Shown: piece after piece, positions 36,158 through 41,849 of the stretch
Numbering within the stretch: the stretch's first letter is position 1
Layout: every line of letters begins with the position of its first letter
DNA from: Halorussus vallis
Lineage (GTDB): Archaea; Halobacteriota; Halobacteria; Halobacteriales; Haladaptataceae
Length of the DNA stretch: 64,000 nucleotides
Direction: 5' to 3'
NCBI RefSeq assembly: GCF_024138165.1
Contig: NZ_CP100000.1
Location: 434,001-498,000 of the forward strand
The notes under the pieces: generated by a model
What the model saw: the letters and a program-made list of their open reading frames with translations, nothing else
Databases searched by the model: none
What the model was told of the DNA's origin: nothing
Made by a program: the position numbers and the translations under genes

Positions 36158-36696
36158 AGGTAGTCGAGGTAGTCGACCGTCCCGGCGCTCGGTTCGCGCT
36201 CGCCGGCGAGGACCGCCGCGATCTCCTCGGCGACCGCCTCCGGCGACCGGTCGGTCGTCTCCACCTCGTAGACGCGGTCGACGCCGTGAGCGTCGACGGC
36301 CTCCGAGAGAATCACGTCGAGCGCCTCGCTCTCTGCGTTCTCCCGCGCCTTGGCCTCGGATTCGCCGCGGTCGGTGAGTCGCCGCTCCAGTTCATCCGGG
36401 CGACAGCGGAGCACGACGACTTTGTCCGCGTCGAGGTGGTGGGCGAGGTGCGACTCCACGAGCACGCCGTCGCGGTCGGCGAGTCGCTCGCCGACCGCGT
36501 CGAGGTCGGCGACGAGGCTGTCGCGCTCGGCGTCGCGTTCGTCCCACAGCCCCTCCTCGCGAATCAGGTCGTTGAGGTGGACGACCGAGAAGTCGGGGCC
36601 GAGCGCCGATTCGAGGTCGTCGCCGAACTCGGCTTCGAGGCGCTCGACCGCGGTGGTCTTGCCCGTGCCGGGCGTGCCGGTGACGACGACCCTCAC
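36154..36696 (-). CDS. Adenylate kinase-like NTPase (AK6/Fap7 type)
   Basis: A 180-residue P-loop kinase of the archaeal AK6/Fap7 family, which phosphorylates AMP/dAMP and in eukaryotes acts in small-subunit ribosome assembly. Walker A 'VVTGTPGTGKTTAVERL' lies at residues 4-20, the acceptor region is 'VVHLNDLIREEGLWDERD', and the lid arginines are in 'LRCRPDELERRLTDRG'. The GTG at 36696 overlaps the hisC stop by 4 nt, and its own stop overlaps the next ATG by 4 nt, making a tightly coupled three-gene operon. Confidence 0.9.
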   Translation of the reverse strand: MRVVVTGTPGTGKTTAVERLEAEFGDDLESALGPDFSVVHLNDLIREEGLWDERDAERDSLVADLDAVGERLADRDGVLVESHLAHHLDADKVVVLRCRPDELERRLTDRGESEAKARENAESEALDVILSEAVDAHGVDRVYEVETTDRSPEAVAEEIAAVLAGEREPSAGTVDYLDYL

Positions 36697-37820
36697 GACG
36701 ACAGCACCTCGTTGAGTTCGGCGACCGCCTTCCTCGTCTCGACCTCGGTGCCGCAGGTGATGCGAACGCACTCCGGCAGGCCGAAACTGGTGCAGTCGCG
36801 GACGATGACCCCGCGGCGCTGGAGTTCGTCGGCGACGCCCGCGGCGTCGCCGACCTCCGCGAGCACGAAGTTTCCGTGGCTCTGCCAAGTTGGGGCGTCG
36901 AGGTGCTCGTAGATGTACTCGCGCGCCCATTCGGCGGTTTCGACGGTCTTCCGGGCGTGCTCGTCGTCGTCGAGCGCCGCGAGGCCCGCTCGACAGGCGA
37001 TCTCGCTCGCGGCGAACGGCGTGTTCACGCGGGCGTAGGCGTCGGCCCACTCCGCGGGGACGATGCCGTATCCGAGGCGGACGCCCGCGAGGCCGTACAC
37101 CTTCGAGAAGGTACGCAGGACCGCGACGTCGTCGCGGTCCCGCGCGAGTTCGACCGCGCTCGGCCCGTCGGCGAACTCGCCGTACGCTTCGTCGACCAGC
37201 ACCAGCGTCCGCTCGTCGGTTTCCTCGGCGATCGATTCGACCGCGTCGAGGTCGAACCGGCCGCCGGAGGGGTTGTGGGGGCTCGTCAGGTAGACGATTC
37301 GCTCGCCACCGTCGGACTCAGCCGAAGTCCGACGAGGTCGAGAATCGTCCGATTCTCGACCGCCGTAGGCCGAGAGCACCGTCTCGGCGTCGAGCGCGAA
37401 GTCGTCGCCCTTCGAGAGTTCGTACTCGGCGACCTCGCCGTGGTGGAAGCGCGCGCTCATCCCGTAGTAGGCGAACCCGGGCGTCGGCACGAGCACCCGG
37501 TCGCCCGGTTCGAGCATCGCGCGGGCGAGGTAGTCGAGGACGCCGTCGCCGCCGTTGGCCAGCCAGACCTGCTCGGGCGCGACGTCCCAGCGGTCGGCGA
37601 GCTTCGCGGTCAGGTCGGTGTGAGAGGACTTCGGGTAGGAGTGGGCCGACCCGGCCGCCTCCCGGATGGCCTTGACCGCCGCCGGCGAGGGACCGAACGG
37701 GTTCTCGTTCGAGGCGAGTTTCACGAGGTCGTCGGGGTCCACCCCGAGTTCGCGGGCGACCTCCTCGATGCCCCGCCCGGCCTGGTACACCGCGTGCGCG
37801 GAGAGGTCCCGTGGTTCCAT
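36693..37820 (-). CDS. hisC: Histidinol-phosphate aminotransferase
   Basis: A 375-residue PLP enzyme of histidine synthesis (imidazole acetol-phosphate to histidinol phosphate). 'LVKLASNENPFGPSPAAVKA' is the diagnostic N-terminus, 'YLTSPHNPSGG' and 'LVDEAYGEFA' contact PLP, and 'LRTFSKVYGLAGVRLGYG' holds the Schiff-base Lys. Between 'VLSAYGG' and 'RIVYLTSPH' there is an extra charged loop encoded over a perfect 12-bp inverted repeat (37336-37361). The ATG at 37820 is chosen by homology; the frame to 38933 is antisense to the Gln-rich gene. First gene of the hisC/kinase/phosphotransferase operon. Confidence 0.95.
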   Translation of the reverse strand: MEPRDLSAHAVYQAGRGIEEVARELGVDPDDLVKLASNENPFGPSPAAVKAIREAAGSAHSYPKSSHTDLTAKLADRWDVAPEQVWLANGGDGVLDYLARAMLEPGDRVLVPTPGFAYYGMSARFHHGEVAEYELSKGDDFALDAETVLSAYGGRESDDSRPRRTSAESDGGERIVYLTSPHNPSGGRFDLDAVESIAEETDERTLVLVDEAYGEFADGPSAVELARDRDDVAVLRTFSKVYGLAGVRLGYGIVPAEWADAYARVNTPFAASEIACRAGLAALDDDEHARKTVETAEWAREYIYEHLDAPTWQSHGNFVLAEVGDAAGVADELQRRGVIVRDCTSFGLPECVRITCGTEVETRKAVAELNEVLSS

Positions 37821-37967
37821 GTGCGAGAGGTGTGGGCCGCGCGCCTTAAGCGTGCTCACCTGCACCAGCGGCGGGTTCGTCGCGCCGCCCTCTAGCGATT
37901 GTCGTGTCAGTCGCTGGCCAGCACACATAAGGAAAACACTGGCGAGACATCTTACGGGGGATTCACT

Positions 37968-38948
37968 ATGGCACGACAGAACGAAGATCACTGGGGGAAC
38001 AGCGAGCACGAGCGGCGACGCGGGCAGGCTCACTCCGACGAACACGAACGAAGCGGCCGATACTCGTCGGGCGGTCGAGAGATGGGCCAGCAGGACCAGT
38101 ACGGCCAGCAGGGTCAGCATCAGCAGACCGGCCAGCAGGGCCAACACCAGATGGGTGGCCGTGACATGCAGGGGCAGGGCCGCTATCAGGAACAACAGAC
38201 CGGCCGACACCAGCAGTCCGGACAGCATCACCAGCAGGGTCAGCACCAGCAAACCGGTCAGCAGACCGGTCAGCAGCAGCAGACCGGCCAGCGCCAGACC
38301 GGTCAGCAGGGCCAACACCAACAGTCCGGACGACAGAACCGATACGGCCAGCGACGGAGTCAGCAGTCCGGCCAGCACCAACAGACCGGTCAGCGCCAGC
38401 AGGGCCAACATCAGCAGGACCGCCAGAGCCGCGGCGGCGACGTCCACGAGATGAGCCAGCACGGCGGTCAGGGCGGCCAGTACACCAGCCAATCCGACCA
38501 GCGACACGGCGTGGACCAGAACCAGGGCTGGGGCCAGTCCGGTCAGCAGGGCCAACAGGGCCAGCATCAGCAGTCCGGACAGCATCACCAGCAGGGCCAG
38601 CACCAGCAAACCGGCCAGCAGCAGACCGGTCAGCACCAACAGGGCCAGCACCAGCAAGGTGACCGATACGGCCAGCACCAGCAGTCCGGTCGTCACCAGC
38701 AGGGCCAGCGCGACCAAGGCCATAATCAGTACGGCGGTAGCTCCGAGAATCAGTTCAGCCCCGTCCAGCAGACGGCGATGCAGGGCCAGACCCGCCACGG
38801 TCGCCAGAGCGTCGACCGCTACGGCGGCGAAGGCACCGACCGACAGAGCCAGCAGGGTCGTCACGGCCAGCAGGGCGGCCAGGACCAGTACGGCGGTCGG
38901 CAGGACGAGAACCGCCGCGGGCACGAGCGCCACCAGACGCCGTACTGA
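37968..38948 (+). CDS. Gln/Gly/His-rich low-complexity repeat protein
   Basis: A 326-residue protein whose residues about 35-250 consist almost entirely of Gln, Gly, His, Thr, Ser and Arg, in units such as 'GQHQQTGQ', 'GQHQQSGQ' and 'HHQQGQHQQ'. The N-terminus ('MARQNEDHWGNSEHERRRGQ') and C-terminus ('GRQDENRRGHERHQTPY') are charged. No hydrophobic segment, fold or motif is seen; it should be disordered and prion-like. Haloarchaeal proteins are normally acidic and poor in Gln, so this is exceptional. DNA-level repeats are long (38211-38264 and 38568-38621 differ at two sites), so the array probably expands and contracts. Function unknown. Confidence 0.75.
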   Translation: MARQNEDHWGNSEHERRRGQAHSDEHERSGRYSSGGREMGQQDQYGQQGQHQQTGQQGQHQMGGRDMQGQGRYQEQQTGRHQQSGQHHQQGQHQQTGQQTGQQQQTGQRQTGQQGQHQQSGRQNRYGQRRSQQSGQHQQTGQRQQGQHQQDRQSRGGDVHEMSQHGGQGGQYTSQSDQRHGVDQNQGWGQSGQQGQQGQHQQSGQHHQQGQHQQTGQQQTGQHQQGQHQQGDRYGQHQQSGRHQQGQRDQGHNQYGGSSENQFSPVQQTAMQGQTRHGRQSVDRYGGEGTDRQSQQGRHGQQGGQDQYGGRQDENRRGHERHQTPY

Positions 38949-39113: not shown

Positions 39114-40793
39114 ATGAGCGAGACACGCAAATCCGACATCGACGCGGGCGTCGACGCCCGACCGGAACTCGAGCGAGGGGAAGCGGACGCCATCGAGGAG
39201 CTCCTCGGCGACCGGGTGGTCCGGCGCGAGAGCCACCTCAACACCGAAGGGTTCGTGATTCGGCCGGACGAGGTGGAGGAGGTCCTGCGGACCCTCCGCG
39301 ACGATGCGGGCTTCGACCTCCTGTCGACGATCACGGCCCAGGAGTACCGCGACCGCTACGAGAGCATCTATCACCTGAGCAAGTACGACGACCGGACGCA
39401 GGAGGTCAGCGTGATCGTACCCGCCGACCCGGAGAATCCGGTGAGCGAGTCGGCCGCGGACGTCTACAAGACCGCCGAGTGGCACGAGCGGGAGGCCTAC
39501 GACCTGGTGGGCATCGAGTACGACGGTCATCCGGACCTGCGGCGCATCCTGCTGCCGGAGACGTGGCAGGGCCACCCGCTCGCGCTCGATTACAATCAGG
39601 ACAAGCCCCAGGTCGTCACGCTCAGAGAGCACGTCAATCCCCTCGCCGAGAGCGCCAAGGACAGCCAGTCCGACACGATGTTCCTGAACATCGGGCCGCA
39701 CCACCCGGCGACCCACGGCGTGCTCCACTTGAAGACCGTCCTCGACGGCGAGCAGGTCGCGAACGTCGAACCCGACATCGGCTACCTCCACCGCTGTGAG
39801 GAGCAGATGTGCCAGACCAAGAACTACCGCCACCAGATCATGCCGTACCCCGACCGGTGGGACTACGCGGCGAACATGACCAACGAGTGGGCGTACGCGC
39901 GGGTGGCCGAGGACCTGAACGACATCGAGGTGCCCGAGTACGCCAAAATCCTCCGGACGCTGGGGGTCGAACTCTCGCGCATCATGGGTCACATGCTCGC
40001 GGTCGGCACCTTCGGCCTCGACATCTACGGGGACTTCACGGCGATCTTCATGTACGCGATGCGCGACCGCGAGATCGTCCAGAACATCCTCGAAGACCTC
40101 ACCGGCCAGCGGATGATGTTCAACTACTTCCGACTCGGCGGCGTGGTCTGGGACCTGCCCGAACCCCGCGAGGAGTTCTTCGAGAAGATACGGAACTTCC
40201 TCGACGGCCTCCCCGAGCACGTCGAGGAGTACCACGACCTGATGACGAGCAACGAGATCTTCCAGGAGCGGACGGTCGACACCGGCGTCATCGACGCCGA
40301 GACGGCCAAGCAGTACGGCTGTACCGGGCCGGTCGCCCGCGCATCGGGCATCGACTACGACGTCCGGCGCGACGACCCCTACGGCTACTACGACGAACTC
40401 GACTGGGACGTCATCACCGAATCCTACGGCGACAACTACGCCCGGTTCCTCGTCCGGATGCAGGAAGTCGAGGAGTCGGCGAAGATGATCGGCCAGTGCG
40501 TCGACCTGCTCGAAGACTGGCCGGAAGACGAGCGCGAGATTCAGAGCAACGTGCCCCGAACGCTCAAGCCCGAACCCGACACCGAGGTCTACCGCGCCGT
40601 CGAGGCCGCGAAGGGCGAACTCGGCATCTACATCCGAAGCGACGGGACCTCCCAACCGGCGCGGTTCAAGATTCGGAGTCCGTGCTTCTGCAACCTCCAC
40701 GCGCTGGAGGCGATGTCGGAGGGCGAATACGTCCCCGACCTCATCGCGTCGCTGGGAAGCCTCGACATCGTGCTCGGGTCGGTGGACCGCTGA
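39114..40793 (+). CDS. nuoCD: Fused NADH-quinone oxidoreductase subunits C and D
   Basis: A 559-residue fusion. Residues about 20-165 are NuoC, with the signature 'KTAEWHEREAYDLVGIEYDG' and 'DLRRILLPETWQGHPL'. Residues about 185-559 are NuoD, opening 'MFLNIGPHHPATHGVLHLK' and ending 'LGSLDIVLGSVDR'. In complex I these form part of the peripheral arm around the quinone pocket; haloarchaea normally carry the fusion inside a nuoABCDHIJKLMN cluster. Here no other nuo gene flanks it: the neighbours are the Gln-rich gene and an F420-type oxidoreductase. It may be a displaced gene or a second copy. Confidence 0.93.
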   Translation: MSETRKSDIDAGVDARPELERGEADAIEELLGDRVVRRESHLNTEGFVIRPDEVEEVLRTLRDDAGFDLLSTITAQEYRDRYESIYHLSKYDDRTQEVSVIVPADPENPVSESAADVYKTAEWHEREAYDLVGIEYDGHPDLRRILLPETWQGHPLALDYNQDKPQVVTLREHVNPLAESAKDSQSDTMFLNIGPHHPATHGVLHLKTVLDGEQVANVEPDIGYLHRCEEQMCQTKNYRHQIMPYPDRWDYAANMTNEWAYARVAEDLNDIEVPEYAKILRTLGVELSRIMGHMLAVGTFGLDIYGDFTAIFMYAMRDREIVQNILEDLTGQRMMFNYFRLGGVVWDLPEPREEFFEKIRNFLDGLPEHVEEYHDLMTSNEIFQERTVDTGVIDAETAKQYGCTGPVARASGIDYDVRRDDPYGYYDELDWDVITESYGDNYARFLVRMQEVEESAKMIGQCVDLLEDWPEDEREIQSNVPRTLKPEPDTEVYRAVEAAKGELGIYIRSDGTSQPARFKIRSPCFCNLHALEAMSEGEYVPDLIASLGSLDIVLGSVDR

Positions 40794-40886: not shown

Positions 40887-41849
40887 ATGGTCGAGTTCGG
40901 TTACACCCTGTCCAGCGAGGAGCACGCACCAAACGACCTCGTCGACCACGCCGTCCGGGCCGAAGAGGTCGGCTTCGACTTCGTCTCCATCTCGGACCAC
41001 TACCACCCGTGGATCAGCCAGCAGGGCCACGCGCCGTACGTCTGGACGACCCTCGGCGGCGTCGCGAACGCGACCGACGAGGTGGACGTGGGCGTCGGGG
41101 TCACCTGTCCCATCATCCGCTACGAACCGGCCATCCTCGCGCAGGCGACGGCGACGGTCGCCTCGATGCTCCAGGACCAGGGCCGGGAGTTCTTCTGGGG
41201 CGTCGGGACGGGCGAGAACTTGAACGAGCACGTGACCGGCCAGAAGTGGCCGCCCCACCACGTCCGACTGGAGATGCTGGAGGAGGCGGTCGACGTGGTC
41301 CGGAAGCTCTGGACCGGCGACGTGGTCAACCACGAGGGGAAACACTACACCGTCGAACGGGCCCAACTGTACACGACCCCCGACGAAGCGCCGCCGGTGG
41401 TCGTCTCGGCCTACGGCGAACACGCCGCGCAGGCGGCCGCCGACCTCGGCGACGGCTTCTGGTCGGTCGGACCTCAGGACGTGGTGAGCACCTTCGAGGA
41501 GGCCGGCGGCGAGGGCCACAAGTTCAGCCAACTGACGGTCTGCTACGCCGAGGACGAGGACGAGGCGGTCGAGACGGCCCACGAGTACTGGCCCAACAGC
41601 CTCGTCCCGGGCGAACTCAGCTCCGAACTCGCCATCCCGAAGTACTTCGAACAGGCCAGCCAGCAGGTCACGAAGGAGGACGTCCGGGAGGCCGACAGCA
41701 TCGTCACCGACCCCGACCCGCAGACCCACATCGACAACGTCCAGAAGTTCGTCGACGCGGGCTACGACCACGTCTACGTCCACCAGATCGGCCCGGACCA
41801 GGAGAAGTTCTTCGACTTCTACAAGGACGAAATCGTGCCGGAGTTCTGA
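40887..41849 (+). CDS. F420-dependent LLM-class oxidoreductase (TIGR03557-like)
   Basis: A 320-residue luciferase-like TIM-barrel oxidoreductase. 'VEFGYTLSSEEHAPNDLVDH' starts the barrel, 'DFVSISDHYHPWISQQGHAP' and 'GVGTGENLNEHVTGQKWPP' are typical of the F420-dependent glucose-6-phosphate dehydrogenase-like subgroup (TIGR03557). It is expected to transfer hydride between coenzyme F420 and an unknown alcohol or aldehyde. The length is normal. Gene of its own, 93 bp after nuoCD. Confidence 0.88.
   Translation: MVEFGYTLSSEEHAPNDLVDHAVRAEEVGFDFVSISDHYHPWISQQGHAPYVWTTLGGVANATDEVDVGVGVTCPIIRYEPAILAQATATVASMLQDQGREFFWGVGTGENLNEHVTGQKWPPHHVRLEMLEEAVDVVRKLWTGDVVNHEGKHYTVERAQLYTTPDEAPPVVVSAYGEHAAQAAADLGDGFWSVGPQDVVSTFEEAGGEGHKFSQLTVCYAEDEDEAVETAHEYWPNSLVPGELSSELAIPKYFEQASQQVTKEDVREADSIVTDPDPQTHIDNVQKFVDAGYDHVYVHQIGPDQEKFFDFYKDEIVPEF

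Follow-up and report, generated by a model that had tools for sequence, protein, structure and literature searches.

Proteins that set Arg and Tyr stickers along a Gln- and Gly-rich spacer chain follow a grammar of the condensing kind, and FUS is built on a similar one. Most of what is proposed about condensates assumes ordinary physiological salt; the haloarchaeal cytoplasm contains molar KCl, which screens charge attraction. A high-salt, nonionic condensation regime has been demonstrated in the test tube (PMC7889641, PMC9705477). FUS is reported to reenter a phase-separated state once KCl exceeds 1.5 M (PMC7889641), and the Arg-rich protamine is reported to phase-separate near 2.75 to 3 M salt, which poly-lysine does not (PMC9705477). 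Hydrophilins are described as highest in Asn and Gln (PMC4190154), and the Gln-rich domain of yeast SNF5, which contains histidines, is described as a pH sensor (PMC8890752). Among titles and abstract openings, drawn from a literature with few subscription papers, we recognized nothing describing the Q-rich protein analyzed here. Here, we analyzed a 64,000-nucleotide stretch of Halorussus vallis DNA (the window), in which one open reading frame encodes a Gln-rich protein of 326 amino acids (Table 1).

The glutamine-rich gene and its genomic slot

The Q/G/H-rich, low-complexity repeat frame reported in a preliminary description of the window is real. The protein contains 107 Gln, 63 Gly, 31 Arg, 29 His, 21 Ser, and 14 Thr residues (32.8, 19.3, 9.5, 8.9, and 6.4% for the first five), and Lys, Leu, Ile, and Cys are absent; the window's long acidic frames average 2.7% Gln and about 19% Asp plus Glu. 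Of its 10 Tyr residues, 5 lie in RY[GSQ] and 4 in QY[GST]. Pfam and NCBIfam searches with this protein and its relatives gave no match. A single-sequence AlphaFold2 run, of a type that is often poor, returned a mean pLDDT of 44.6 with neither helix nor strand, and from this and the composition the protein is predicted to be intrinsically disordered. By eye, the sequence has no hydrophobic stretch that could serve as a signal peptide or membrane anchor. The N terminus, MARQNEDHWGNSEHERRRG, likewise has no hydrophobic signal stretch, which makes the surface location once suggested unlikely.

Table 1. Features of the locus (window coordinates)
Feature	Position	Strand	Remarks
hisC-like aminotransferase, class I/II, divergent neighbor	36693..37820	-	Pfam Aminotran_1_2
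Promoter-like element, GGCCAGCACACATAAGGAAA in the window, GCCCAGTACACATAAGGAAA as the Halorussus form	37916..37935	+	About 30 to 50 bp before the ATG
Q/G/R/H-rich protein, predicted disordered, 326 aa	37968..38948	+	ATG to TGA, open; no Pfam/NCBIfam match
N-terminal motif GRYSSGGRE	38055..38081	+	RY-x-G-R pattern
Repeat-rich body	38088..38711	+	GQHQQTGQ and HQQSGQ units; RYG and QYG as putative stickers
54-bp repeat, copy 1	38211..38264	+	52/54 bases identical to copy 2
54-bp repeat, copy 2	38568..38621	+	52/54 bases identical to copy 1
C-terminal core motif HNQYGGSSENQFSPVQQTAMQG	38712..38792	+	Common to short acidic proteins of other haloarchaeal families
Stand-alone second NuoCD-like protein, downstream neighbor	39114..40793	+	Complex1_30kDa and Complex1_49kDa
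Luciferase-like (LLM) protein, conserved neighbor that follows in the slot	40887..41849	+	Pfam match in window

The near identity of the two 54-bp repeats, also noted in the preliminary description, was confirmed. When whole codons were shuffled (n = 200), the best 54-mer self-match averaged 37.4 with a maximum of 44, and when synonymous codons were shuffled with the protein unchanged, it averaged 47.8 with a maximum of 52. Gln is encoded by CAG 94 times and by CAA 13 times. Because the synonymous shuffles reach 52/54, the DNA identity comes largely from the protein repeat and the CAG bias, and a recent duplication of the 54-bp unit is therefore not proven. On the opposite strand, a Leu/Ala/Val-rich open frame of 746 amino acids (36693-38933) runs continuously with hisC. 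We do not count it as a gene and regard it as a by-product of the CAG/CTG-rich sequence.

We then looked for relatives among genomes sampled at one per species. A single-sequence protein search found them in 10 of the 18 Halorussus genomes, the window's own included, and missed 8. A full-length profile built from these 10 (A1) reached 13 of the 28 genomes of the window's family, all of them Halorussus (13/18, with 5 missed). A profile restricted to the last 36 residues (A2) matched 17 of the 18 Halorussus genomes at E < 1e-7 and 4 of the 10 other family genomes, and in the 7 family genomes still without a match, the region upstream of hisC contains a Q-rich reading frame in every case. Full coverage of the family was reached only by the C-cap profile together with synteny. 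All 28 genomes, from Halorussus, Haladaptatus, and a third genus, have a Q-rich frame near hisC, and 27 copies are intact; the copy in G025 was counted apart because its N- and C-terminal parts lie in different frames. The apparent frameshift in that copy, a Haladaptatus ortholog (L114), could be a sequencing error. Six matches at the level of the order (L058 to L061, L063, and L064; E values of 0.016 to 0.047) had no matching motif in a plausible gene and were ascribed to chance, and inspection of the weak matches at the level of the genus (L065 to L074) revealed no motif protein.

The Q-rich gene is directly divergent from hisC, which we take to be the name of the class I/II aminotransferase gene, in 26 of the 27 intact cases, with a gap of 89 to 361 bp; in the exception, G027, a luciferase-like gene stands between the two. 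Downstream lies either the luciferase-like gene directly or a NuoCD-like gene first (15/27, all Halorussus), in which case the luciferase-like gene comes next wherever it was found in the stretch examined. Because the window's genome has two NuoCD copies, the one in this slot is an additional copy that stands alone. We considered whether this neighbor ties the Q-rich protein to complex I and did not adopt the idea, since 12 of the 27 genomes have the Q-rich gene with no NuoCD gene in the slot.

The preliminary description had recognized no homolog and had supposed that the gene was possibly recent. The first statement was wrong, as orthologs occur across the whole family, and the second does not hold for a gene that is common to three genera and keeps to the same slot in 26 of its 27 intact copies. 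Loss of the frame in close relatives, which it had named as grounds for giving up the idea, was not seen in 27 of the 28 genomes, and its suggestion of a variable length was borne out, with 119 to 429 amino acids between species.

Conserved features and selection

Next, we compared the 27 intact orthologs. All lack Cys and carry a net positive charge (+2 to +37), and GRAVY values run from -2.04 to -2.79. Gln varies from 16.4 to 42.9% and Arg from 7.7 to 28.8%, and Tyr is sparse, at 3 to 11 residues per protein. The 8 intact Haladaptatus copies contain 17 to 29% Arg, and the Halorussus copies are only mildly basic, at +2 to +29 over 194 to 429 amino acids. Three Halorussus orthologs (L004, L006, and L008, in genomes G011, G017, and G002) have runs of about 9 to 10 consecutive His residues, which are possibly metal binding.

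Each end of the protein carries a short motif. An RY-x-G-R pattern occurs within the first 80 residues of 26 of the 27 orthologs (G006 is the exception), and an SPVQQT-type motif, [SD]-x-V-[EQ]-[QRE]-T, occurs toward the C terminus in 22; it is missing in G006, G018, G019, and G021, and G005 has the variant SATEQTAMR. Shuffling (2,000 times per protein) gave expectations of 0.15 proteins for the N-terminal motif and 0.0005 for the C-terminal motif, both for regular expressions that were composed after the alignments had been seen. Given that G006 has neither motif and three further orthologs have no C-terminal one, the end motifs are not indispensable. In an alignment of the 150 bp upstream of the 27 genes, TAA is present in all and TAAG in 26 (TAAA in G023). 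We predict that this conserved, promoter-like element is a promoter footprint.

For the 16 most similar ortholog pairs (NG86, MAFFT pairs), dN/dS was 0.14 to 0.34, and it was 0.158 for the closest pair (92% identical), values that an identity-maximizing alignment of repeats may have biased downward. The C-cap alone gave 0 to 0.43 over 7 hand-chosen pairs with few changes; the window's cap is among the more divergent (0.43 against G012 and 0.41 against G013). Relatives thus retain the gene at almost the same site, with its makeup and its terminal motifs, and together with the charge, the promoter element, and the signs of purifying selection this identifies a real, conserved protein. The alignments suggest that the chain may vary freely in length and in the order of its spacers and that composition, stickers, and end motifs are mostly constrained.

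The QYGG-VEQT motif in short acidic proteins

The core of the C-terminal motif, [NT]QYGG-x(4-6)-[SD][PA]V[EQ]QT-xx-R, also occurs in short proteins of three other haloarchaeal families (f4, f5, and f7) and of Haladaptatus. These proteins are strongly acidic, have no Gln repeats, and are encoded elsewhere in the genome. Profile A2, made from Halorussus caps only, matched acidic f5 proteins at E values of 1.8e-4, 9.4e-4, and 0.028, which, as per-genome values from a search of 392 genomes, makes the single matches marginal. In the other direction, a profile made from acidic proteins only (A3) matched the Q-rich protein of G016 (E = 2.2e-4), f7 proteins of about 55 to 60 amino acids (4.0e-6 to 5.3e-7), and an f4 protein (3.4e-4). 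A joint profile (A5) matched 33 of the 392 genomes at E ≤ 0.05 and 28 at 1e-5 or better, the latter being 20 from the window's family and 8 from outside it (f4, 2; f5, 3; f7, 3). Many of the matched genomes had themselves supplied rows to A5; G371 (2.1e-8) and the second gene of G020 (5.9e-6) had not. Weak A5 matches in G390, G190, G286, G232, and G215 (0.0096 to 0.041) were left out of our counts, and a second match in G024 (0.011) is a short acidic motif protein. Both forms are thus present in G024 and in G020 (Haladaptatus halobius). From these profile matches, it is probable that the core motif of the Q-rich and short acidic proteins is homologous, the alternative being convergence on a short linear motif. 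The link that it makes between them has no database name.

In f5, the acidic motif gene lies near PCNA and Mn-catalase genes (Pfam confirmed in L096 only). At two of the three f5 loci inspected, an additional small acidic gene encodes SPVEQTMM and no QYGG (L096, 5714-6034; L097, 7105-7407); it is arranged in tandem with the QYGG-VEQT gene, and PCNA and Mn-catalase genes lie on either side. Locus L121 carries a similar SLIEQTMM. In genus g9 of f7, two NuoCD copies are present in each of the three genomes that carry the acidic motif gene (G060, G070, and G099), and a single copy is present in G033 and G106, where the motif search found nothing; at locus L168 of the same family, one NuoCD copy lies within about 3 kb of the acidic motif gene. 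A plasmid search with an acidic relative and a search of viral contigs with the core profile found nothing, and three weak PDB matches to the core profile (best E, 0.056) were disregarded.

The window's genome encodes a second Gln-rich protein (L172; contig 1, 537948-538601). Between two low-complexity tails of Q/G/S/Y composition, in which QQSQYGGQ occurs, it has a Cys-containing, four-helix-like domain with a weak resemblance to Csp1 copper storage proteins (E = 0.02, well short of the cutoff). A relative of this protein adjoins the acidic motif gene in f7 (L168, 6386-7192).

Possible roles and known counterparts

The reading that we favor, with a probability of roughly 40%, is that the Q-rich protein is a cytoplasmic, disordered sticker-and-spacer protein that serves as a condensate scaffold at molar KCl and has docking motifs at its ends. 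We adopted it because this grammar is of a condensing kind, because FUS and protamine condense at molar salt, and because the haloarchaeal cytoplasm is at molar KCl. Arg and Tyr in RYG and QYG would be the stickers, and the Gln/Gly/His/Ser chain would be the spacers; the protein is basic, unlike the acidic proteome around it, and bears a short motif close to either end. With charge attraction screened and Arg/Tyr/Gln contacts strengthened, the protein could self-associate into condensates and bind polyanions, whether RNA, DNA, or acidic proteins, and the QYGG...SPVQQTxMR motif might recruit or anchor a partner that is shared with the small acidic proteins carrying it. A scaffold, one of the roles first suggested for this protein, fits the sequence. 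However, Tyr is sparse, and most conserved positions lie in short motifs of a kind that a plain linker or a protectant could have as well. A more specific version, which we hold to be doubtful, would place the phase boundary inside the cytoplasmic KCl range, so that osmotic shifts assemble or dissolve a compartment whose clients, perhaps small acidic proteins or the partners of these among them, use QYGG-SPVQQT for docking. If true, haloarchaea would have an equivalent of stress granules in a high-salt, nonionic regime.

Close behind the condensate scaffold comes its main rival, a hydrophilin- or LEA-like protectant, which would be a soluble, unstructured Gly/Gln-rich shield in salt downshift, desiccation, or oxidative stress and would act by hydration and crowding, not by condensation. 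This is a possible role, in favor of which we counted the low-salt tolerance of Haladaptatus and an f5 acidic motif relative about 0.85 kb from Mn-catalase (Pfam in L096). Gly content (19.3%, above 6%) and GRAVY (-2.32, below -1) are also those of hydrophilins (PMC4190154). However, mean hydrophilicity, which should exceed 1, was 0.41 and did so in only 4 of the 27 orthologs on a Hopp-Woods scale that may not be that of the paper, and conserved end motifs with a positive charge exceed what a bulk protectant needs. That charge, positive overall in every one of the 27 orthologs, with Arg greatly outnumbering Lys and making up 17 to 29% of the intact Haladaptatus copies, would suit a protamine-like architectural protein that coats DNA or RNA without a separate phase. 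We find this unlikely, since the Halorussus copies are only mildly basic and charge attraction is weak at molar salt.

A His-based pH or metal sensor, by analogy with the SNF5 domain, or a metal store would account for the 8.9% His of the window's protein and for the His runs of G011, G017, and G002; His falls to 2.4 to 4.6% in 6 of the 27 orthologs and is less conserved than Gln, Gly, and Arg, and for this reason we judge such a role quite improbable. The amyloid-forming, prion-like element of the preliminary description had Gln-rich low complexity in its favor and is less probable again. Yeast-type prion domains are Q/N-rich and charge-poor and score above about 0.05 in PAPA; the 326-amino-acid protein has 2.1% Asn and 57 Arg, Asp, or Glu residues, and its maximum smoothed PAPA score was -0.015. 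Repeats that turn over fast and the frameshifted copy in G025 might suggest a drifting, nonfunctional repeat frame, but synteny, end motifs, promoter element, and dN/dS all speak against this, and we give it the least credence. Compared with the preliminary description, the analysis adds a conserved family, end motifs, and a wider motif link, and it weakens the claims of prion character and recency.

A family that lets its sequence drift and maintains its composition, charge, and end motifs, within an acidic proteome, offers a natural test of the contacts behind assembly at molar KCl, with 27 natural variants of the Q-rich protein. It also points to a motif without a name that connects basic Gln-rich proteins and short acidic ones, both disordered, across haloarchaea.

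Among known systems, FUS/FET and RGG proteins resemble the Q-rich protein in their Q/G/S spacers, Tyr and Arg stickers, and disorder, and FUS is reported to condense once more at molar KCl (PMC7889641). The Q-rich protein has such a low-complexity chain with both stickers; it has no folded RNA-binding domain by Pfam match or confident fold. It also differs in being haloarchaeal and stand-alone, with about 33% Gln, few Tyr residues, and no homology. Hydrophilins of the GsiB/LEA-like kind are likewise Gly-rich, very hydrophilic, disordered, and repetitive, whereas the Q-rich protein is Arg/Gln-based, has conserved end motifs, and falls short in mean hydrophilicity. Protamine is Arg-rich, basic, and disordered and is reported to phase-separate at high salt (PMC9705477), but Gln, Gly, and His dominate here. 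The short acidic haloarchaeal proteins share the core motif itself and differ in being 46 to 105 amino acids long, strongly acidic, free of Gln repeats, and encoded at other loci.
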